From Thiofilum flexile DSM 14609 (GTDB lineage Bacteria > Pseudomonadota > Gammaproteobacteria > Thiotrichales > Thiotrichaceae), in NCBI RefSeq assembly GCF_000380185.1, contig NZ_KB904758.1:62001-126000 (forward strand): DNA of 64,000 nt, in the 5' to 3' direction. Below the pieces are notes generated by a model. That model searched no databases. It saw nothing but the letters and a program-made list of their open reading frames with translations, and had not been told where the DNA came from. How positions within the stretch are numbered: position 1 is the stretch's first letter; each line of letters starts with the position of its first letter. Position numbers and translations under genes: made by a program. Below are positions 22,064-33,275 of this stretch, one piece after another.

Positions 22064-25000
22064 TTACTCCTCTCGGATGATAAAGCGCTCAGCACCTGCA
22101 CCAATACCTAAACGTTCGGGATAATTCATATCGGTTACCATACTTGGGGGCTGTCTAAACGCCCCCTGAGATACGATCCGAGCTAAATAAAACAAATGAT
22201 GGGGTGATTTCTTATTGACTGGCAGCACTGCCCAATAACGGTCATTAGCTAATTGCTCTGTTAATAAGGGGCTAGTTTCTAGTAATTCACTAATGGGTTT
22301 ACTCATTCCGTCTAAAATTAAAGTACCTAGCTCAGGTAAATGACGGAGCGAGCGTCGATCCAGCACCCACCCGCCGGGCAATAAATCCATTACTAAAGCT
22401 TGCGCTACATCTTCATTCGCACTGACTTGTAAATGCACTATGATTAAATCACCGACTCGCAAAGAGTTTAAAGATTTGGTATTCCCTTGCGAATCAAATA
22501 GGGCACGCTGAATCTGGAAGAAATCCTTTTTCTCAGCCAAAGGCGGCTGTGGATATCCTTGCACCTCTAAGGTGGCATGCACAGTGGAGTTAGGATCGGC
22601 TTTTACCGCCACTCCCGCATTGAGTTCTCGCTCAGAAATATCCAAACGATAAGCGCCTTTTTGATTAACACTCAGTGCTCTGGATTGCAGCAAAAGCTGA
22701 GCACCCCAAGTGGGGAAAGATTGCGTTATATTAAGCTGCAGACCCAATTGGAAAAAAGCCCATTGCTCTTGGGTCGTATAGTAATTGCGCATATAAATCT
22801 GGCGATTTAACTCTTTCAATCGCCCCTCTAAATCAGGAATGTCATGCCTATAATGCAATAATAAGGCTAATAACCAAGCCTGATCACGAATAGGACTGCC
22901 ATAATCACCTAATTGCAAAGTCTCATCGCGTTTAAAGGCCAGCGCCCGTTCAAAAGCCTCACGGCTACGTTTAGAATCTGTGCGTTGATAGAGCGCTAAT
23001 CCCATTTGTACTAAGGGCAAGCCTGATAAAGCTTTTTTACTATCCTGATCATACCACGTTCTTAAATTTCCTAAGCTCACTCGGTTAACTCTCGATAATA
23101 CATAAGAGCCATAGGCTTTAATCGCAAAAGCTAAATGATCAGGATTATCGATACCTTTATTCTCTATATTTACTACCCCTAAAGATAAAAGTGCTTCTAG
23201 ATAATCCAATACCCCATTTAATAAATAGTGTGGGACAGCAAATCCTTGCTCACGCGCATCCAAGAGAAAATCAGCCGCATAAGCACTTAACCAAGGATCC
23301 GCTTGCATTTTACCACTCCAAGCCGCAAAACCGCCGTTAGCGAGTTGTAAACTACTCAGTTGCACTAGTGCATTACGAACACTAATTTCTCGACTGGTTA
23401 AGGATAACGGTACTAAGCCTAGATTAGTGGCCCACGCTGGACTTAAAAATAGATAGGGGTAGTTTTTACTTATAATCGACTCTAGTGATATATAGGGATA
23501 CGCTAATAAATCATCTAATGCTGCCCGCACACTCAGCTCAGGGATACTACTTAATGTCAGTCTGGCTCGTAAAGAATCGGTCTGTAAATTTTGAATAATC
23601 GTTTTATCCAACGTTACTGCACTATCTTCACTACTAATCGTATATAAGCGCGAACGCTGTAAACGTGGATAGGCTGCCCGTACTAATATATTTAGCTTAC
23701 GATGTATAGTAAAACCCTTACCCTCTAATACTAGCTCAATCATGCCCTGTCCAAAACGTCGACTCGCTTTTATGGGCAAGTTAATAGACTTAGTAATTCC
23801 TTTTTCTAATATATACTCATGATTAGTGGAGGTCGCTAAATGTAAAAACTCATTGGCCTCTATACGTAAGTTAACCGTTTGGCTTTGCTCAGACTTATTC
23901 TCTAAAGTCACACTGAGTTTAGTATTATCTTCTGCCGCTAAAAAGCGGGGAGCCATGGAGGTCATTTCAACGGGGGCTTGTACCGTGAGAGGCTGGCTGA
24001 CGGCTCCTAATTGTTGTTCACCTAAGGCGACTGCCATTAATGTTAAAGTACCCGACTCACTAGGCATGGTTAATTTAATATTTGCCTCACCTTGTGCATT
24101 AAAATTTACTAGGCTACTCATTAACGGCTGAATAGTAGGCTGATTAAAACGCTGCTGCGGTTTTACTATCACAGGCGACTGATTAGATAATGGAGGGGTA
24201 AAAAACTTACTAATATCACTACTTAGGATTTTAGCATAGCTATCATATTGCTCTACCCCATAACGCTTAGCAGAGAAATAATAATTTGCCGGATTTATCT
24301 CAGAACTATTAACCGCACTCATTAACTGACTATTTATAGCAGACAGAAATACCAAGGCACTGCTATCTTTCAAGTTTTCGGCCTTAACGGTAAAGGTTAC
24401 TGCTTGCTCAGGTAGAATCTTATTAGGTGCTGCAATCGTTAGTTTTAATTCCCGCTCTGAACGATCTAAGGGTAAATGAATAATACCCAACGCTCTATTA
24501 GGAGGAGTACCTTGTGCTTTATCCGCTGGAATTAATAATAAAGTATTAATATAAAGATCATGACGACGCCAATTACTATGTATCGGGATATTAAAGGTTG
24601 CACCTTGAGCGGGTATATGTACTTGCTTAAACCATAATAACTCATCACCTTCAACAGTAAGAATAGCCTCACCGGCTGATGGCGGAATAATATGAACTCT
24701 AGCAACCTCACCTACCCTATAACTAGGCTTATCCAAACTCATTTTAACATCATAAGGTTGTACAGCAGCATTAACATTTTGCCAACGCCAATCCGCCACA
24801 AAACGATAAGCGGCCTTAAGCCTAGTAATGGAGTCTTCAACCTCTAACCAATACTCTCCCGAACCTACTTTAAACTCTACCGTCGTTACCTCGTTCTCTG
24901 CTAGAGAAACGGTCTGTTGCCGTATAGGAATGAGCTGTTCATTAGCCGTTTTTTTCCAACCCATTTCGGGAGTATAACTCCAAGAATAATGCTGCTCTGA

Positions 25001-26908
25001 TTTTAATAACGTTACTGCTACCTTTTGAGCTGAGACTTGCTTACCTTTTTTATCCCATTTAGCTAATTCAAAACGTACTGTTGTATTCGCTTCTAATGCA
25101 TTTTCTTTAAATAAGGGTTTAATCCCTATTAGAGCAGTAGCAGGCCAATAAGATTGCTGTAAGTGTTGCTCTACCTTATAGCCTGTTGGTTCGGAAAGCT
25201 GAGCGGTAAAATTAAATTGTAATGGGGTATTGAGCTGGACTTGACTCATATCCACCTCCCAAAACCCACCACCTGTTCGGTTTAAGGTTAGATTTGATTC
25301 TGCTTGAGCAGGTAAATGCTTGCTATCGCGAGGATCACCAAAGTAAAAATCCGTATTAAAAGGTTGTCGATTTAACTGGGTTGTTTGTAATAGCTTAACA
25401 GGATAACCACTCGCTAAACGATTCTTAAAGGTTTCACCTTGCAAGGCTAAAATAATTTTTTTACTATTACTAGCCTCTTGTGTAGAACCACTTAATTGGA
25501 GCTTTAACCACTCCGGCGTATAATATTCTACCGAAAAATTAAAGCGATTAAGTGGTTCGGGATCCGTTTCTTTTAAACGTACCTCTATCGACCATATACC
25601 AGTTGGTGCATCACTAGGTAATTCAAAGCTATCTTTAAATAAACCTAAATTATCTTCTTGAGCGTTTAGCTTTTGTTCGTAAATGACTTTCTGATCGGGG
25701 CGTTTTAATTTAAGGTATGCCTCCTGAGCATTTATCGGTAAACCATCCCGATCTCGCACTAAAAACATCAGCTCAACTATATCTTTAGGGCGAAATAAAC
25801 GATGGCTACTATAGAAGAATATATCGACTGCCTGATCATATCTGCCCATTGTGACATTTTTAGGTAATTGTAGAGCTGGATCTCTTAAATCAATAAAAGC
25901 CAAATCATTTTCACGTATTGCTGTAACTAAAAAGGCACCTTCAGGAGGATTATCAAAATGGGCGCGTCCGGTCGCATCGGTGCGCTGGGATAGCACTTGT
26001 TTATCCGCACCATAGAGTTGTACAGTTAAATCTTTAACTATTTGCCCCGTTGTTAGCGTATGGGCAAAAACCTCTATTTGCTGAGCATAACGTCTTACAT
26101 GTAAAGCTAAATCAGATACTAGAAAATAGGTCACTCGATAGGCTTGCTCATCAAAAGTACCGGGCTGGCGCATTACTACAAAATAGACCCCTTGAGCCTG
26201 TAAAGTATTAATATTTTCTACGGGAATAATATTTTCCGTGACCATATTTGGCTGGGAATGCGTGAGAAAACGCATACTATGGACACTACGGGTAAACTGT
26301 CGAATAGCACTTAGGTCATGAACATTAAAACCTTCATCTAAATTTAATTGCTCTAATACAGAGGGTAAATGTTGCGGCGTAACTTGTAGAAACTCTAAAT
26401 CTAGCTCTGGTACATTAATGCTACGAATAGATAAACCGGCTGTTAAGCGAGTCGGTAAAATGCTTGCCCGCATACTAAAATCAAACTGAGGTTCTAGTAC
26501 TTTCGTTTGGATACTAATATCAATCGGTAAACGTTGTACTAAGTGATTATCTGCAGATTTTAAACCCGGACGAATCTGTACGCGATAGTTGGTATTAGGA
26601 TTAATATTATCAAAATATAAACGTCGAGGATCACGGTCTATATGCCACGTCCCTTTTACCTGCACACCATTGGAGGTGGTGGTAATAAAATCAGTATGCT
26701 CTTGATATTCGTATAAAGGCTGTGAGTATGTTAATACTAACACGGGTTTATCATTAATGGTTTGTTCGGTAAGATCCATTAAAACCAGTTCAGTTAAAAC
26801 CGTATGATTATCAAGGGGTGTTTTTGGCTCTGCATAATTAGGGGTGGCTATTAACCATAAGCCGAGTATTAGTATTATGGATAATATTTTTCTGCTACTC
26901 ATGCACAC
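22064..26908 (-). CDS. Alpha-2-macroglobulin family protein lacking the thioester motif
   Basis: The 1614-residue secreted protein has a cleavable signal peptide (cleavage after NYA; no lipobox cysteine, so it should be soluble or otherwise retained). It shows the bacterial alpha-2-macroglobulin order: N-terminal beta-sandwich (MG) domains, a bait-like region, the A2M domain, and an all-helical thioester-type domain from about residue 1120 that includes LQLANGGFAAWSG. Such proteins trap proteases in the periplasm. In thioester members the motif is YPYGCxEQ; here near residue 1140 it reads YPYISLES, so Cys and Gln are absent. That places it with thioester-less forms such as YfaS/MagD. No pbpC lies nearby. 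Confidence 0.88.
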   Translation of the reverse strand: MCMSSRKILSIILILGLWLIATPNYAEPKTPLDNHTVLTELVLMDLTEQTINDKPVLVLTYSQPLYEYQEHTDFITTTSNGVQVKGTWHIDRDPRRLYFDNINPNTNYRVQIRPGLKSADNHLVQRLPIDISIQTKVLEPQFDFSMRASILPTRLTAGLSIRSINVPELDLEFLQVTPQHLPSVLEQLNLDEGFNVHDLSAIRQFTRSVHSMRFLTHSQPNMVTENIIPVENINTLQAQGVYFVVMRQPGTFDEQAYRVTYFLVSDLALHVRRYAQQIEVFAHTLTTGQIVKDLTVQLYGADKQVLSQRTDATGRAHFDNPPEGAFLVTAIRENDLAFIDLRDPALQLPKNVTMGRYDQAVDIFFYSSHRLFRPKDIVELMFLVRDRDGLPINAQEAYLKLKRPDQKVIYEQKLNAQEDNLGLFKDSFELPSDAPTGIWSIEVRLKETDPEPLNRFNFSVEYYTPEWLKLQLSGSTQEASNSKKIILALQGETFKNRLASGYPVKLLQTTQLNRQPFNTDFYFGDPRDSKHLPAQAESNLTLNRTGGGFWEVDMSQVQLNTPLQFNFTAQLSEPTGYKVEQHLQQSYWPATALIGIKPLFKENALEANTTVRFELAKWDKKGKQVSAQKVAVTLLKSEQHYSWSYTPEMGWKKTANEQLIPIRQQTVSLAENEVTTVEFKVGSGEYWLEVEDSITRLKAAYRFVADWRWQNVNAAVQPYDVKMSLDKPSYRVGEVARVHIIPPSAGEAILTVEGDELLWFKQVHIPAQGATFNIPIHSNWRRHDLYINTLLLIPADKAQGTPPNRALGIIHLPLDRSERELKLTIAAPNKILPEQAVTFTVKAENLKDSSALVFLSAINSQLMSAVNSSEINPANYYFSAKRYGVEQYDSYAKILSSDISKFFTPPLSNQSPVIVKPQQRFNQPTIQPLMSSLVNFNAQGEANIKLTMPSESGTLTLMAVALGEQQLGAVSQPLTVQAPVEMTSMAPRFLAAEDNTKLSVTLENKSEQSQTVNLRIEANEFLHLATSTNHEYILEKGITKSINLPIKASRRFGQGMIELVLEGKGFTIHRKLNILVRAAYPRLQRSRLYTISSEDSAVTLDKTIIQNLQTDSLRARLTLSSIPELSVRAALDDLLAYPYISLESIISKNYPYLFLSPAWATNLGLVPLSLTSREISVRNALVQLSSLQLANGGFAAWSGKMQADPWLSAYAADFLLDAREQGFAVPHYLLNGVLDYLEALLSLGVVNIENKGIDNPDHLAFAIKAYGSYVLSRVNRVSLGNLRTWYDQDSKKALSGLPLVQMGLALYQRTDSKRSREAFERALAFKRDETLQLGDYGSPIRDQAWLLALLLHYRHDIPDLEGRLKELNRQIYMRNYYTTQEQWAFFQLGLQLNITQSFPTWGAQLLLQSRALSVNQKGAYRLDISERELNAGVAVKADPNSTVHATLEVQGYPQPPLAEKKDFFQIQRALFDSQGNTKSLNSLRVGDLIIVHLQVSANEDVAQALVMDLLPGGWVLDRRSLRHLPELGTLILDGMSKPISELLETSPLLTEQLANDRYWAVLPVNKKSPHHLFYLARIVSQGAFRQPPSMVTDMNYPERLGIGAGAERFIIREE

Positions 26909-26993
26909 AACCAGCCTGATTTCTTATGATTCAAGGAGGCTATTATAAAGCAGTCATGCAGAAGTTGAAAATTATATGAATGACGAGAAGGTG

Positions 26994-27069
26994 TGGCGTC
27001 CCTACGGGGATTCGAACCCCGGTACTCGCCGTGAAAGGGCGATATCCTAGGCCACTAGATGATAGGGAC
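26994..27069 (-). tRNA. tRNA-Glu (TTC), copy 2
   Basis: A 76-base cloverleaf with encoded CCA. The 5' end reads GTCCCTATC, the anticodon loop is CTTTCAC (anticodon TTC) and the T-arm has GGTTCGAATCC. It is identical by eye to the copy 26 bases upstream in the same direction. Confidence 0.97.
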
Positions 27070-27095
27070 TTAACGAATTGTAACAAACACTAAAA

Positions 27096-27171
27096 TGGCG
27101 TCCCTACGGGGATTCGAACCCCGGTACTCGCCGTGAAAGGGCGATATCCTAGGCCACTAGATGATAGGGAC
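27096..27171 (-). tRNA. tRNA-Glu (TTC), copy 1
   Basis: A 76-base tRNA with encoded CCA and anticodon TTC. It begins nine bases after the stop codon of the small membrane-protein gene, so both should be on one precursor with tRNA-Ala. The cognate synthetase gene gltX lies just upstream on the same strand. Confidence 0.97.
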
Positions 27172-27180
27172 ACTGCTTTA

Positions 27181-27381
27181 CTATTTATTTCCTTCACGTG
27201 GCGCAAACAATACTATCGTTGCTAAACCTGCAAATGTTATTACAAACCCTGCTGGAATCACCATAAATAGTAAAGTTGCTAATTGATCATAGTTCATAAA
27301 CATAGCACTGAACCCGCCGATAAAACTAAGCACAGTGATAATTAGACCTAAAACCAATCCAATCTTACCCGCCAGAACCAT
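27181..27381 (-). CDS. Small two-span membrane protein within tRNA cluster
   Basis: A 66-residue hydrophobic protein with two predicted membrane helices (about residues 4-28 and 36-59), a short loop MNYDQLA and a charged end PREGNK. A GAGG site lies seven bases before the ATG. It sits 23 bases after tRNA-Ala and nine bases before tRNA-Glu on the same strand, an unusual position inside a tRNA operon. I do not recognise a family. Good start signal and clean helices argue that it is real. Confidence 0.7.
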   Translation of the reverse strand: MVLAGKIGLVLGLIITVLSFIGGFSAMFMNYDQLATLLFMVIPAGFVITFAGLATIVLFAPREGNK

Positions 27382-27404
27382 AATAACCTCGTTCTGAGAT
27401 AAGT

Positions 27405-27480
<76 letters not shown>

Positions 27481-27522
27481 ACATAAAGGAAGCGCGTATT
27501 CTTCCTTAATCGGTCATTCATG

Positions 27523-28938
27523 TCAAGCACTAGATGCACTATTTTTTACAAACTCAATAAAAATATTAATGCGTTGCAATACAGTGTCCTTGCTTAACAG
27601 CTTCAGAGTCACATCTAGCGCGGGTGAGGAGGTTCCTCCGGTCGTTGCCAGTCGTAAAGCCGGCCCTACTTTGCCTAATTTGACTTGTAACTGCTCACAG
27701 CTCGCTGTAATAGCCTCATGAATAGCGGCCTCATCCCAAACCTGTAAAGCACCTAAGTGTTCAGCGACCACTTGCAAATAATGCGGTGTCTCAGCAGAGA
27801 CTTGTTTTTTCATAGCCGCTGCATCGTAACTGTTCACTGGCTCATAGAAATAACGACTCGCTGCCACTAATTCCACTAAGGTTTTAGCTCGCTCCCGTTG
27901 TGCCTCTATTACATCTACTAGTGCAGGGCCTCGACTCGTGTCTAAATTTTGTTGGGTTAAATGCCATTGCAACTCAGCAGCAATCCGCTCAGCGGGTAAG
28001 GTCTTAATATAATGCTGATTCAGCCACAATAATTTATCGGGACTAAAACTAGAGGGTGCGCGATTAATATTTTCAATTTCAAAGAGCTGAATCAGCTCAT
28101 CGCGGGAGAAAACTTCCTGATCGCCATGTGACCAGCCTAAACGCACCAAATAATTCAATAAGGCTTCGGGTAAATAGCCCTCATCTCGATATTGCATTAC
28201 CCCTACCGCCCCATGCCGCTTCGATAAGCGTTGCCCATCATTACCTAAAATCATCGGTACATGAGCAAATTTAGGTAAGGCCGCACCTAAAGCACGCATA
28301 ATATTAATTTGGCGCGGGGTATTATTAATATGATCATCACCACGAATCACATGGGTGACATTCATATCAATATCATCCACCACCACACATAGATTATAAG
28401 TAGGCACGCCATCAGAACGCGCAATAATCAGGTCATCTAGCTCGGCATTGGCAATGGTAATTTTGCCCCGCACTAAATCCTCAAACTCCACCACCCCATC
28501 CAGCGGATTTTTAAACCGAATCACGGGCTGCACACCTGCAGGAGGGGTAGCAGTAGAATCGCGCCAACGCCCGTCATAACGCGGTTTTTCTTTGCGCACC
28601 ATTTGTGCTTCACGCAGGGCATCTAGTTCTTCTTTGGAGCAATAACAACGATAGGCTTGACCATTATCCAATAATTGTTGGATAACCTCGCGGTAACGAT
28701 CAAAACGCTGAGTTTGATAGAAAGGCCCCTCGTCATAAGCCAAATCCAACCAATCCATTGCTTCTAAAATGGCATCAATAGAGGCTTGGGTAGAGCGTTC
28801 TAAATCAGTATCTTCAATCCGTAAAATAAAATCCCCGCCCGTTTTACGTGCATACAACCATGAGAATAATGCGGTACGAGCACCCCCGATGTGTAATAAA
28901 CCAGTGGGGCTTGGTGCAAAGCGGGTTCTGACTTTCAT
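27523..28938 (-). CDS. gltX: Glutamyl-tRNA synthetase
   Basis: GltX charges tRNA-Glu with glutamate. The 471-residue class I synthetase starts MKVRTRFAPSPTG; this ATG (28938) is preferred over an in-frame upstream start because it matches the family. HIGG replaces HIGH in LLHIGGARTALFSW and the KMSKS-type loop is GQRLSKRHG. A zinc-like CYC segment (RCYCSKEELD) is present. Two tRNA-Glu genes lie directly downstream. Confidence 0.97.
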   Translation of the reverse strand: MKVRTRFAPSPTGLLHIGGARTALFSWLYARKTGGDFILRIEDTDLERSTQASIDAILEAMDWLDLAYDEGPFYQTQRFDRYREVIQQLLDNGQAYRCYCSKEELDALREAQMVRKEKPRYDGRWRDSTATPPAGVQPVIRFKNPLDGVVEFEDLVRGKITIANAELDDLIIARSDGVPTYNLCVVVDDIDMNVTHVIRGDDHINNTPRQINIMRALGAALPKFAHVPMILGNDGQRLSKRHGAVGVMQYRDEGYLPEALLNYLVRLGWSHGDQEVFSRDELIQLFEIENINRAPSSFSPDKLLWLNQHYIKTLPAERIAAELQWHLTQQNLDTSRGPALVDVIEAQRERAKTLVELVAASRYFYEPVNSYDAAAMKKQVSAETPHYLQVVAEHLGALQVWDEAAIHEAITASCEQLQVKLGKVGPALRLATTGGTSSPALDVTLKLLSKDTVLQRINIFIEFVKNSASSA

Positions 28939-28992
28939 GCAAACAAATCCTGAGTTACCAATAGGTGACACAGATTACCAGTTAAACCCAAA

Positions 28993-29044
28993 AACGACTA
29001 GTTAGACACCTAAAGCATATAACCTAGTCGTTCAAAATAGGTGT
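28993..29044. promoter_or_regulatory. Crossing inverted repeats, possible pseudoknot upstream of gltX
   Basis: AACGACTAG (28993-29001) pairs perfectly with CTAGTCGTT (29024-29032), and ACACCTA (29006-29012) pairs perfectly with TAGGTGT (29038-29044). The two stems interleave, which is the order of an H-type pseudoknot. It lies 55-106 bases upstream of the gltX ATG, so it may be in the gltX leader, or be two nested DNA operators. Confidence 0.45.
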
Positions 29045-29065
29045 TATCAATCGATAAAATAGGTA

Positions 29066-29248
29066 AGAGTAGCCAAAATATTCAGCAATAATTCATGCCT
29101 AACTGGCTATTCTGTGATCAGTTCTTAGGGCTAAAGGGGTTAAGCACCTAGACGAGAAGGTAGGAAAATATCTACCAGTTTAGACAAGTTCCAATAAAAA
29201 TAAGTCAGCTCTTTAAGAGCCTTCTATCAACGAGATAGAGGGCTTTTT
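29066..29248 (+). ncRNA. Candidate small RNA with intrinsic terminator
   Basis: No protein is encoded on the plus strand here, yet a complete intrinsic terminator ends the segment. Upstream are a 10-bp stem (29066-29075 with 29104-29113) and a 6-bp stem (29059 block analogue at 29159-29164 with 29171-29176). All three stems contain one G-U wobble that is allowed only in plus-strand RNA. TTCAAA (29031) and TAAAAT (29055) with 18-base spacing form a plausible promoter placing the start near 29066. I could not match it to 6S, tmRNA, RNase P or Rsm RNAs. Confidence 0.4.
29218..29248 (+). terminator. Intrinsic terminator of candidate small RNA
   Basis: The arms 29218-29228 and 29234-29244 form an 11-bp stem with one U-G wobble and a 5-base loop, followed directly by TTTTT. 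The T-run is on the plus strand only, although both flanking protein genes are on the minus strand. Confidence 0.7.
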
Positions 29249-29336
29249 GCTTTACGAACCCATCACCATTCTAAGGCTAAACTTAACTATTTAGCTAGTT
29301 CTATCTCACCTGAATAACGATGCAATGCTCACTAAC

Positions 29337-29828
29337 TTAACTAGCCAAGATTAAATAGGCTAAAAGCTGTAAGCTCACCCACGCCATTACACCCGCTAAG
29401 ACATCATCTAACATAATACCTAAACCACCGGGTAACTGGCGATCGACCCATTTAATAGGCCAAGGCTTAACAATATCAAAAAACCGAAACAGGATAAAAC
29501 CGCCTAAAATCTCCCATCCCCCCCCTGCTGGAGCCGCTATCATGGTAATCCAAAACCCTACAAACTCATCCCATACAATCCCACCATAGTCATGCTCACC
29601 TAAGAGCTGAGCTGATCGACCACAGACCCATACACCTAATACAAAGGCACATAATACTACCCATAGATAGGTGCTGAGTGACCACTGAGCCATGATTAAA
29701 TAAATAGGGATAGCGGCTAAAGTACCAAAAGTACCGGGCGCTTTAGGAGCCAACCCACTCCCTAAACCGAAAGCAAGAAAGTGAATAGGCGAAGAAAATA
29801 CGGTACGAGCCGAAACCATAGTCGTCAT
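29337..29828 (-). CDS. pgpA: Phosphatidylglycerophosphatase A
   Basis: PgpA dephosphorylates phosphatidylglycerophosphate to phosphatidylglycerol at the inner membrane. The 163-residue protein has the family start FGLGSGLAPKAPGTFGTLAA, the acidic DYGGIVWDEFVGFW segment, FRFFDIVKPWPI and a final LDDVLAG. Several hydrophobic helices are evident. Here it follows an HD-GYP gene by 36 bases rather than thiL, its usual neighbour. Confidence 0.95.
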   Translation of the reverse strand: MTTMVSARTVFSSPIHFLAFGLGSGLAPKAPGTFGTLAAIPIYLIMAQWSLSTYLWVVLCAFVLGVWVCGRSAQLLGEHDYGGIVWDEFVGFWITMIAAPAGGGWEILGGFILFRFFDIVKPWPIKWVDRQLPGGLGIMLDDVLAGVMAWVSLQLLAYLILAS

Positions 29829-29864
29829 ACTAGTGGCCTTATAACGATTAAAAAGACAGTCTAC

Positions 29865-30947
29865 TTAGTCAGCTCTTACAATTAAATCGTCAATTTCTTG
29901 CACTTGATAGCGAATACGCCGCATCACAGGTAATAGCCCTAGAAATATATCTAACAAATAGGGGTCGAAATGTTTACCTCTTTGCTCCAACATTAATGCA
30001 ATCGTCTCTTCCTCACTCAAGGCTAGCTTATAAACCCGCTCATGCACTAAAGCATCATACACATCCACAATGGTAGTAATACGAGCAGTAATGGGAATAT
30101 CTTCCCCCGCTAACCCCATAGGATAACCTGAACCATCCCAACGCTCGTGGTGGCAAAGGGCAATATCGGCCGCCATATCAAGGGTAGGAATATGCGAATG
30201 CTCTAACATTTTGGCACCAATTTCGGTGTGGCGCTTCATAATGCTAAACTCGGCTTCGGTTAATTTACCTGCCTTCAATAAAATCCGATCTGGCACACCA
30301 ATTTTACCAATATCGTGCATAGGCGCTGCGACACGAATATCATCAATACGCTCTTGTGACCAATTTAAAGCTTTAGCCATAGCAGCAGCATATAAACCAA
30401 TTCGCCTTACATGCGCCCCCGTTTCCTCATCTCTAAAGCTGGTTAAGCTTACGAGCTTGATAGCAATCTCTTCTTCACGCTGTTTAATTTTTAAAGTACG
30501 CCGCTGTACTTCCAGTTCTAACTCTTCACGTACTAATAAACCATTACGCATTAATTGTAAGCGCTCTACTTCTTGATAGTACTCCGACCCCATGCGTTGA
30601 ATAAATAAAACGGGTTTATCCTCGACCCATACCGCCCCGGCCTCTAAGACTAACTCTTGATGTAACTCATCTATTTCAATCCAAGGCCCTGAACGCAAGG
30701 GCGCTAAGGCTGACTGTTTCCAGTGCTCCTCGGCATCGGGCATGAAATAAGACAAATAGGAAAACGCTTCTGTTAAGGCATAGTTCTGCTCTTGGCTTTG
30801 GGAAGGTTGGGCTAATTTAAGCCAAAACTGACTCCAAGCCGGTAAATCTGACACCGCTTGGAATAAGCCGCACGGCTGGCGCACAAAGATGACCATATCT
30901 AACGCGCTATAAAGGGCTGGTAAAACCTTTGATACTACCGTAGTCAT
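29865..30947 (-). CDS. HD-GYP domain protein, probable cyclic-di-GMP phosphodiesterase
   Basis: The 360-residue protein has a variable N-terminal half of about 165 residues ending in a coiled stretch (EELELEVQRRTLKIKQREE) and a C-terminal HD-GYP domain. Metal-binding motifs are intact: ETGAHVRRIG, MHDIGKIGVPD, KRHTEIGAKML, CHHERWDGSGYP and ITTIVDVYDAL. HD-GYP enzymes hydrolyse cyclic-di-GMP. It is the last gene of the operon with the Rab-like GTPase and the OmpA-type protein (12-base gap), suggesting that their output includes second-messenger turnover; this is inference. Confidence 0.9.
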   Translation of the reverse strand: MTTVVSKVLPALYSALDMVIFVRQPCGLFQAVSDLPAWSQFWLKLAQPSQSQEQNYALTEAFSYLSYFMPDAEEHWKQSALAPLRSGPWIEIDELHQELVLEAGAVWVEDKPVLFIQRMGSEYYQEVERLQLMRNGLLVREELELEVQRRTLKIKQREEEIAIKLVSLTSFRDEETGAHVRRIGLYAAAMAKALNWSQERIDDIRVAAPMHDIGKIGVPDRILLKAGKLTEAEFSIMKRHTEIGAKMLEHSHIPTLDMAADIALCHHERWDGSGYPMGLAGEDIPITARITTIVDVYDALVHERVYKLALSEEETIALMLEQRGKHFDPYLLDIFLGLLPVMRRIRYQVQEIDDLIVRAD

Positions 30948-30959
30948 ATTACATACCCC

Positions 30960-31457
30960 CTAGACCTCGATCATTCGTTCAGCCAACGCCTGAAACATAG
31001 CGTCAACCCCCAAACCATCTTTAGCACTTGTTTTAATAATAGGTAACTGAAATGCCGCTAATTGATTTAAATGCTTATCTTCTAATAACCATTTTTCTTT
31101 AAGATCACATTTATTAAGCGCAAAAAGTACGGGAATATCCCCAGCATGCTCTTTAACGCGCCCATGCAGCATTAAAGCCACCTCGAAGGTATTAGGGCGG
31201 GTGGTATCGACTACAATAATGCAGCCCCCCGCTCCGCGTATGTAGGTGGGTTTTAGCGTGGTATAGTCATCCTCACCCGCCACATCCCAAATCATTAAAG
31301 TTAGAGCTTTGTCGCCGACAGAAACCAGCTTTTTATCGATCTTCACGCCTACCGTAGTATGGTATTTATCGCTATATAAACTACTGACATAACGCTTAAT
31401 TAAACTGGTTTTGCCTACTGCAAAGGCTCCTAATAGACATATTTTTTTTTGTATCAT
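30960..31457 (-). CDS. Rab/Ras-like small GTPase
   Basis: The 165-residue protein is a compact Ras-superfamily GTPase of eukaryotic style: P-loop GAFAVGKTSL at residues 10-19, switch I region YHTTVGVKI, G3 WDVAGEDDY, G4 NKCDL and G5 TSAKDG. The ATG at 31457 gives a standard MIQKKICLLG start, so an in-frame TTG at 31478 is rejected. Relative to Ras, the Gly12 position is Phe and the catalytic Gln61 position is Glu, so intrinsic hydrolysis is probably slow and GAP-dependent. No MglB is encoded nearby; the neighbouring membrane protein may regulate it. Confidence 0.88.
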   Translation of the reverse strand: MIQKKICLLGAFAVGKTSLIKRYVSSLYSDKYHTTVGVKIDKKLVSVGDKALTLMIWDVAGEDDYTTLKPTYIRGAGGCIIVVDTTRPNTFEVALMLHGRVKEHAGDIPVLFALNKCDLKEKWLLEDKHLNQLAAFQLPIIKTSAKDGLGVDAMFQALAERMIEV

Positions 31458-31481
31458 ATCGATTCGCCCAATCTGCAACTG

Positions 31482-33275
31482 CTAGGAGCTGGTTTGTGGA
31501 TCTAACGCTTGTAAATCCACCTTTAGAGTCACACTACGTTGCCCCTCAGACGTAGCTATTGGAGAGGTATTCGCCGCAATAGCGATTACTAATAAAGCTT
31601 TAGACACTCCAAAATTTAATAATTGGTCGACTAAACCTTGAGCACGAGCTAGACCTAGTTGTCGATTAAAATCCTCCGCACCACTGCCATCTGTATTCCC
31701 CATTAAAGTGACTTGAACGCTTAGTTGTTGTTCAGCCGCTAGTTGTTCAAGGCGCTTTAAATTTTCTGCTAGAACAGGGACTTGAATACTACCCAGTTCT
31801 GATAGCTCTGATTTGCCCCGCTCAAATAAAAACACTGTATTTTTAATAGTATTAATGGTCTGTGTTAAAGGTGTCTCTATGTCTTGGCGTATTAATTGGC
31901 TAGTATCTAGACCTTCTAAGCCCAGACTATAGTGCCAACCTTGCTCTAAACGCGTTATCCACGCTGAATCCGCACTACCACTTACTTTTAAGGTACTGCC
32001 CTCAAGGTTTAGCTCTACCCCTGCTGGGGGTTGTAATAATTGCTGTGCTCTTTGTAACGCTAGGCTCGGTTCGGCTGAAACATAAGGTTGCCATTCAAAG
32101 ACTGGATTAAATGTGGTGCGCACCTGATCGTCGAGAGTAATAGCAGTATCCGCTACTAAAGGATCACGCAAACCTTTTACTTGATAGCCTTGCTCCGTAG
32201 GCTGTGAATCTAGAATGACCACACCGGGTTGGGCATCCCATTGTGCTACGGTTTGCTCCCATAAACGTTGCTTAGCTAATAGACGTTGCTGTTCAGCATA
32301 ATTACTATAAGCCCAATACCCTAGGCCTGCTAACAATAAACCCAATAGCCCATAGGCTAACCAAGGTTTTTTACGCTGGGTCTGGGATGTTTGGCGTTGC
32401 GCTTGTAGACACTGATTTAGTAACGGCTGAGTCGTGCTAAAGGGCTGACTATCGCCGGAATAATTCTTTAGTAAACCATCATAACGCTGATGAATCGTTT
32501 CGACGGTTTGAATCAATAAGGAACGCAATTCGGCAGGCGGCGCACCCCGCACAACGGCAGCAATAGCGACATAAGGGCCTTGCTCAATTAAAACACTCAA
32601 ATCACCAAGACGTAAGGCATTTAATGAGCTTTCATTAGTAAATGAATCTGCCATAAAATCCTGAATCGCACTGAGCATACTACTCACCATATCAGGATCT
32701 TTAGCAATGGCTTGCTCTGAAACAACGTGCTGCAGCAACAAGCTAGTTTTACGATGAATTAAGAACACCTGCTCGACTTGATAGACCAAAGTCTTCATTA
32801 ACACAACTTCGGAATATTTACGTCCGGTGCGCCACGCATCAAAACGCCACCGAATCGAACGGGGTGATAAACTTTGCTCAAGTAGCTGATTAAATGTTTC
32901 TAAGGTTTGCGTGAGGGTCTCATGAATCGATTTACGAATCGCAGGCCCCATCACTGGATAGAGGGCATTGGCGACTAATTGCGGATCACGATTAATAAAA
33001 TGCTCCACCGCCTTATCCATATTGGGTGCTAAGGCTTGGGTGATGGCATTATCAGAATGAGAACGCATCTGTATTGCTTCAGCCAGTACTGAGGCTACAC
33101 GAGCGGTATAGAGATTCACATCCTGAAGCTGATTTTTAAGTGCTAATAAACCAATATAATCAGAACCTAGCAATAATAGCCGTAAACGCTCCAGATCATC
33201 GCTATCCGTCGACATAGTAGCAGCCGCATTCAATATAGAAGAGGCCTTTGTGCGCTCAGCACTCTTCATTACCAC
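31482..33275 (-). CDS. Inner-membrane OmpA-family protein with large cytosolic domain
   Basis: The 597-residue protein has a cytosolic part (residues 1-303), one membrane helix (about 305-323), a periplasmic part with BON-like repeats (about 345-470) and a C-terminal OmpA/MotB peptidoglycan-binding domain (about 478-590, with GNTDGSG and LARAQGLVDQLL). Residues 165-270 show alternating strands and helices (VEQVFLIHRKTSLLL, MLSAIQDFMADSF, LRLGDLSVLIEQGPYVAIAAVVRG) that resemble a roadblock/longin-like fold, a known type of small-GTPase partner. GTG at 33275 is favoured by GGAG six bases upstream; ATG at 33269 is the alternative. It lies between the coiled-coil gene and the GTPase with three-base gaps. 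Confidence 0.8.
   Translation of the reverse strand: MVMKSAERTKASSILNAAATMSTDSDDLERLRLLLLGSDYIGLLALKNQLQDVNLYTARVASVLAEAIQMRSHSDNAITQALAPNMDKAVEHFINRDPQLVANALYPVMGPAIRKSIHETLTQTLETFNQLLEQSLSPRSIRWRFDAWRTGRKYSEVVLMKTLVYQVEQVFLIHRKTSLLLQHVVSEQAIAKDPDMVSSMLSAIQDFMADSFTNESSLNALRLGDLSVLIEQGPYVAIAAVVRGAPPAELRSLLIQTVETIHQRYDGLLKNYSGDSQPFSTTQPLLNQCLQAQRQTSQTQRKKPWLAYGLLGLLLAGLGYWAYSNYAEQQRLLAKQRLWEQTVAQWDAQPGVVILDSQPTEQGYQVKGLRDPLVADTAITLDDQVRTTFNPVFEWQPYVSAEPSLALQRAQQLLQPPAGVELNLEGSTLKVSGSADSAWITRLEQGWHYSLGLEGLDTSQLIRQDIETPLTQTINTIKNTVFLFERGKSELSELGSIQVPVLAENLKRLEQLAAEQQLSVQVTLMGNTDGSGAEDFNRQLGLARAQGLVDQLLNFGVSKALLVIAIAANTSPIATSEGQRSVTLKVDLQALDPQTSS

Follow-up and report, generated by a model that had tools for sequence, protein, structure and literature searches.

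According to PMC7695739, VadR of Vibrio cholerae is an Hfq-dependent small RNA (sRNA) that is activated by VxrAB (WigKR), with a link to beta-lactams; ahead of the −10, its promoter has three conserved elements that match the VxrB motif TTGACAAAA-N2-TTGAC with an 11-base period. A further direct repeat from cell-wall damage signalling, the cre/blr-tag TTCAC-N6-TTCAC of the response regulators CreB and BlrA, is described in PMC3660660. The DNA analysed here, referred to as the window, was a stretch of 64,000 nucleotides from Thiofilum flexile DSM 14609 (contig NZ_KB904758.1, positions 62,001 to 126,000, forward strand), in which a plus-strand sRNA very probably lies between gltX and pgpA. VadR is its closest working analogue. 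In both, half-sites repeated every 11 bases precede the −10, and a third, inverted one occurs in most copies of the sRNA from Thiothrix; the half-site here is ATTCAG, however, and the RNA would measure ~129 nt as against ~85 nt for VadR. The VxrB motif, searched as TTGAC-N6-TTGAC with up to two mismatches, had 0 matches in the 3.4 kb around the window copy (locus L001). From the cre/blr-tag, the repeat TTCAG-N6-TTCAG found here differs in the last base of each half-site, that is by two mismatches, while the direct orientation and the 11-base period are the same. Only at two mismatches did the box match the tag in the window copy and in that of genome G080, and such sites occurred nearby at chance level.

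Both flanking genes, gltX (27523-28938) and pgpA (29337-29828), were assigned by open reading frame (ORF) and synteny and lie on the minus strand, opposite to the sRNA. All large ORFs between 22064 and 33275 of the window, these two included, are on the minus strand; plus-strand ORFs of that region are mechanical ones only, of at most 121 aa, and the nearest (28769-29005, 78 aa) is antisense to gltX and ends 210 bases before the terminator. Past gltX, the glutamyl-tRNA synthetase gene, stand two tRNA-Glu (TTC) and one tRNA-Ala (GGC) genes (26994-27171 and 27405-27480, minus strand), and a search of the whole window against Rfam 15 returned only three tRNAs at the gathering threshold. Beyond pgpA, a gene for an HD-domain protein (29865-30947) is adjoined by one for a Ras/Roc-like small GTPase (30960-31478, minus strand; Pfam Ras, E 3e-33).

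The intrinsic terminator was located on the plus strand at 29215-29248, with the stem 29215-29228/29234-29247, the loop 29229-29233 and the T-tract 29244-29248. This hairpin with its TTTTT end folds at −19.4 kcal/mol (z −5.9), a value reached by 0 of 200 shuffles, and hairpins with a T-rich end stand in the same place in 14 other copies. Since the large ORFs of 22064-33275 are on the minus strand, no evident plus-strand gene is there to use it, and a preliminary description of this DNA, which had noted a strong plus-strand terminator with no plus-strand gene to serve, was borne out. A simple terminator scan did not list the hairpin at 29215-29248, apparently because the stem can extend into the T-tract. 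It is very unlikely that only an orphan or bidirectional terminator is present, serving minus-strand pgpA or stray plus-strand transcription with no dedicated RNA. The hairpin does form on the minus strand as well, pgpA ends 89 bases away, and the 78-aa ORF antisense to gltX lies upstream; on that strand, however, the fold is weaker (−13.5 kcal/mol), contains a C·A mismatch and has no T-run past the stem, and such a reading would leave unexplained both the layout from box to −10 shared among copies and the cross-genus conservation of the box, the 5′ segment and the A-rich stretch, which are set out below.

For the comparison, 57 genomes including the window's own were searched at the DNA level. 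The best match outside the genome itself, in G033 (E 0.001), and a match in G014 both fell into the gltX-pgpA gap, and the parts common to these two and the window were ATTCAG-N5-ATTCA, AGGGCTAAAGGGGT, an AAT-rich stretch and the terminator GCCTTC...GGCTTTTT. Other copies were collected by pattern and from pgpA loci, 30 of 59 pgpA matches being taken up as loci. A homologous plus-strand RNA was thereby found in 14 of the 16 genomes of one genus (g2), most probably Thiothrix, which belongs to the same family as the window's genome, itself of a different genus. Every one of the 14 copies, ten found first and four added later, lies between gltX and pgpA. The remaining two genomes of the genus (G074 and G083) are without the RNA and have a gltX-pgpA gap of only ~40 bases; no such RNA was present in the gaps of ~85-105 bases at the opened loci of three g5 genomes (G069, G071, G073). 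The conserved stretch, its strand and its terminator are thus established by genome comparison, and the plus-strand sRNA that the preliminary description had proposed for this gap is strongly supported by its conservation in the same gap of a related genus.

A model, R1, was built from 10 of the 15 copies, with the window copy and four divergent copies kept out as tests. It matched 14 of the 16 genomes of the genus at E-values from 6.6e-29 to 0.056, the four divergent Thiothrix copies at 2.6e-10 to 0.0014. Its best match in the window, 29119-29248 on the plus strand, scored 20.4 bits (E 0.028 for a search space of 121 kb) and the runner-up in the window 13.0 bits; over the whole genome of the window, the same match had an E-value of 0.91, so that the model alone would not settle homology. 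Weak matches were also obtained in other genera, in G002 (E 0.007), G058, G020, G003 and others, with E-values up to 1. The window gap was also aligned with six of the 14 Thiothrix gaps and compared with dinucleotide shuffles: the summed local alignment score was reached by 0 of 1000 shuffles, and that of single pairs by 0-5.

Conservation was then read segment by segment against seven of the 14 Thiothrix copies. In the box (29080-29098), 16 of 19 positions are invariant among the seven, and the window matches 12-13 of the 19; the terminator has 17-22 of 33 bases in common with them, and the middle 50 bases have 12-16. Conservation accordingly peaks at the box, the 5′ segment, the A-rich stretch and the terminator and drops between them. 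The window copy has diverged from the Thiothrix copies, to judge by these counts, and can with good confidence be taken as homologous to them.

No Rfam 15 family accounts for the sRNA. The segment 28900-29400 gave three matches at E ≤ 10, far below gathering, and nine loci with Thiothrix copies gave five matches at E ≤ 5, all below gathering; a known Rfam RNA was therefore rejected for the window locus and these nine. Among the titles and abstract beginnings of open-licence articles in PubMed Central, none described a small RNA of Thiothrix, of Thiotrichales or of the gltX-pgpA gap. The sRNA appears to be a new family of a familiar kind. A named collection, which perhaps lacks the record of the window itself, yielded six loci with the exact pattern of box plus segment, five from Thiothrix and one from a gammaproteobacterial MAG. 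When 276 genomes of the class were scanned under stricter filters with a model that included the window copy, the genome of the window was the only one to match; no Thiothrix copy was returned, the sample apparently being without Thiothrix.

The proposed sRNA extends on the plus strand from about 29120, as deduced from the −10, to 29248, with a length of ~129 nt. Upstream of it, a tandem box with an 11-base repeat, ATTCAG-CAATA-ATTCA(TGC), occupies 29080-29098 and covers the −35 region, and the −10, TATTCT (29108-29113), was read by eye from the spacing, 9 bases past the box; there is no good −35. TATAAT, CATAAT, CACAAT and others stand at the −10 of the Thiothrix copies, and the hexamer is poorly conserved (0-3 of 6 bases match in the alignment). 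In the window, in G033 and in several more copies, 8-9 bases separate it from the box and 12-13 from AGGGC. The start that the preliminary description had put at 29066 found no support, the likely start being ~29120. Its promoter, TTCAAA-18-TAAAAT (29031-29060, plus strand), is present, but it is one of six sites of this kind in 2.5 kb, against an expectation of 5.4 ± 2.7, and has only 3-14 of 30 bases in common with the seven Thiothrix copies; it was discarded as an unconserved scan match at chance level. Both stems given there with one G-U pair each can be drawn (29066-29075 with 29104-29113; 29159-29164 with 29171-29176), and the second was retained within the transcript. The first lies upstream of the likely start and is most likely outside the transcript, because it overlaps the conserved box and the −10; its arms, moreover, are poorly conserved, 5-6 of 10 bases matching the seven Thiothrix copies in the 5′ arm and 0-3 of 10 in the 3′ arm, and it was rejected as a transcript part. 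In shuffle tests, 29120-29248 without this stem (z −2.87) was as stable as 29066-29248 (z −2.85).

The transcript would begin with a conserved 5′ segment, the proposed seed AGTTCTTAGGGCTAAAGGGGTTAA (29120-29143), of which 18-19 of 22 bases (29120-29141) match in each of seven Thiothrix copies; AGGGCTAAAGGGG is common to the window and the Thiothrix RNAs, and the exact AGGGCTAAAGGGGTTAA is present in G014. An internal hairpin is predicted at 29159-29176 (29159-29164/29171-29176, the second stem above), and hairpins are predicted at this place in the Thiothrix copies too, with unconserved sequence. Most of these copies have a GGGG...CCCC hairpin here and, just past it, a run rich in T (TTCTTTTT or the like), and because this is terminator-like, a shorter form of ~70 nt is possible. 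Four A-R-N triplets, AAU-AAA-AAU-AAG, follow at 29193-29204, a proposed site for the distal face of Hfq, with 8-11 of 12 bases (29192-29203) matching the seven Thiothrix copies. The consensus structure in Thiothrix has 24 pairs, with 98% of cells paired. Both-sided changes occur in 2 of the 24 among ten sequences (nine distinct), and 100 of 500 shuffles did as well; when the structure was slid by 1-3 columns, 0-1 pairs had such changes. The case for the sRNA is one of conserved sequence, place, promoter layout and terminator, and not of covariation.

The window transcript contains no ATG, GTG or TTG, which further supports the free-standing RNA of the preliminary description, and the copies of G014 and G079 are equally free of them. 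In the other 12 of 15 copies, short ATG, GTG or TTG frames occur, none of which is common to all 12, and the 15 copies thus show no conserved reading frame, as is typical of Hfq-dependent trans-acting sRNAs. A leader of, or a message for, a very small protein was considered in view of these frames, in particular of a TTG frame of 12 codons that recurs in G080, G081 and G082 and a TTG frame that runs into the terminator in seven copies. With no start codon in three of 15 copies, no frame common to the others and no plus-strand gene downstream, such coding is extremely improbable, and it was rejected as unlikely.

Promoters that depend on activators of the PhoB/OmpR family have a tandem 11-base repeat at a fixed distance from the −10 and no −35, and the box upstream of the sRNA is likely the binding site of such a response regulator. 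Most Thiothrix copies have, upstream of the two direct half-sites, an inverted one (ACTGAAT); the window has neither this nor the G that ends the second half of the box. The pattern TTCAG-N5-ATTCA-N10..12-TANNNT was searched in 23 genomes (the window's own, 16 of g2 and 6 of g5) and gave 65 matches against 4 for the reversed pattern. Within the window's own genome, the enrichment was slight, with three matches against one reversed, and the box alone with one mismatch occurred 78 times against 53 reversed. This sRNA was caught by the pattern in three of the 15 carrier genomes (the window's, G033 and G079), most copies being missed because their −10 begins with C or differs otherwise.

By position, 17 of the 65 matches are the promoter of a second RNA, treated below, and 15 loci with the box were opened. 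Four of these lead to an M23 peptidase gene beside a gene reading as tyrS (three genomes of the Thiothrix genus and one of g5; Pfam scan on three), three to an NlpC/P60 gene (Pfam on two) and four to a glycosyltransferase gene (Pfam on one); the rest comprise two that precede a stretch beside ysxC, one before a 470-aa frame without a Pfam match and one without an evident gene. By likeness to the listed sites, the M23 site is found nearly unchanged in 10 genomes of the Thiothrix genus and as a variant in 2; those of the NlpC/P60 and glycosyltransferase genes recur in 10 and 9 genomes, respectively. No peptidase gene behind the box was found in the window's own genome, and none of the opened loci (two sets, of 17 and 15) had a response regulator gene directly behind the box. 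At four loci (L111, L128, L133 and L140, in G074, G001, G076 and G083), the box, exact or with one mismatch, was also seen before a membrane-anchored-looking protein of ~166 aa in L111, without a Pfam match. In the window's own genome, a tandem ATTCAG-N5-ATTCA at G000:C35:17565-17580 (minus strand, L170), upstream of a gene reading as rpoS, may be a chance occurrence.

The genes that share the box, like the box itself, were recognised by comparison, and they bear on the signal to which the regulator would respond. Cell-wall or envelope stress is most likely, because in relatives the box precedes M23 and NlpC/P60 genes and another structured RNA. That the RNA is real and its box is served by a regulator unrelated to the cell wall, a nutrient-sensing one for example, is rather unlikely: glycosyltransferase genes and genes without a Pfam match also stand behind the box, as does the gene reading as rpoS in the window's genome, but the recurrent Thiothrix sites include two peptidase genes of peptidoglycan-hydrolase families.

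Under the same box stands a second conserved structured RNA of ~139 nt with the terminal stem AACTTCAGC...GCTGAAGTT, followed by a conserved hairpin with the loop motif ATTGGGGA. At E ≤ 0.001, it was detected in 29 of 63 genomes of the family, the window's own included (G000:C71:98235-98422, minus strand, locus L242, with the box just upstream); the loci of relatives are L217-L232 in the Thiothrix genus, where it is located downstream of another M23 gene, and L233-L241 in g5. An alignment of 23 of the 29 matches (L243-L245 were off the motif, and the near-duplicates L228, L230 and L231 were left out) had 33 consensus pairs, of which 5 change on both sides. The second RNA had no Rfam match in four opened loci, and an identity with 6S RNA was rejected, RF00013 scoring over the cut-off at a different place in all 7 genomes searched. 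In G074 and G083, which lack the sRNA, a degraded box precedes the second RNA, a box-plus-−10 match is absent, and box-like repeats occur elsewhere in both genomes; control may have changed in this branch.

The third exact box-plus-−10 match of the window's own genome lies at the end of ysxC (engB; G000:C9:58734-58766, minus strand, L255), with a counterpart in G017:C10 (L277). Behind it is a hairpin-forming stretch of ~40 bases, AACCCCGGCCAAACAGGGGGTCTAAAAGCCGGGGT, which is nearly identical in G017, a genome of another genus, has no Rfam match at gathering and is possibly a third noncoding RNA. Each of the three exact matches in this genome stands before an apparently noncoding stretch: one before the sRNA, one before the second structured RNA and one before the segment next to ysxC. 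Other gammaproteobacteria have Spot 42 or ErsA beside engB (ysxC). These two resemble the present case as free-standing gammaproteobacterial sRNAs, and another box promoter of the window's genome is likewise beside ysxC; unlike them, the gltX-pgpA sRNA is at a different locus, and the ysxC stretch has no Rfam match at gathering.

The second RNA also contains a conserved G-rich stretch, TTGGGGTTTGTGG, which bears on the mode of action of the first. It is unlikely that the gltX-pgpA RNA, being real and box-controlled, uses repeated GGGG-containing motifs to sequester a protein or some other RNA and does not pair with mRNAs. GGGCTA or GGGG motifs do recur within single copies (G077, G021, G027, G008), and the co-controlled second RNA has the G-rich stretch; in the window transcript, however, GGA occurs only once (29163-29165, bordering the loop of the internal hairpin), whereas sponges of the CsrB/RsmY type have many GGA sites, and A-rich triplets together with a U-tail are in keeping with a pairing RNA bound by Hfq.

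We consider it probable that the sRNA is an Hfq-type, trans-acting one of ~129 nt, activated by a PhoB/OmpR-family regulator of an envelope response. In the mechanism that we infer, which extends to transcription, the regulator and its signal, Hfq binding and targets, a response regulator of this family, most likely answering to cell-wall or envelope stress, would bind the tandem box and bring RNA polymerase to the −10 at 29108. The RNA would then be bound by Hfq at its A-rich triplets and U-tail, and its conserved 5′ segment, GGGCUAAAGGGG, would form base pairs with the mRNAs that it targets. The A-R-N stretch and the U-tail are suggestive of Hfq binding, and all 4 genomes searched for Hfq, that of the window among them, encode it (PF17209 over the cut-off). 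Sites complementary to the 5′ segment, perfectly or with one mismatch, numbered 38 in 16 genomes, 12 of them exact, and 11 of the exact ones were the sRNA loci themselves. In the Thiothrix genomes, these complements were not enriched, the reversed control being higher in 13 of the 16, and for this reason no target is named.

The findings point to an sRNA family of filamentous sulfur bacteria that apparently has no earlier description, and the box appears to place the sRNA in one regulon with the second structured RNA and with peptidase genes. The loci offer concrete sequences for testing whether sRNAs also serve cell-wall stress responses outside Vibrio. It is a tentative and somewhat doubtful extension that, in Thiotrichaceae, one response regulator for envelope homeostasis has both peptidoglycan hydrolases and a set of noncoding RNAs under its control. 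If it is true, these bacteria would have an RNA-heavy cell-wall response built from parts other than VxrAB/VadR, with RNAs that share G-rich conserved motifs.
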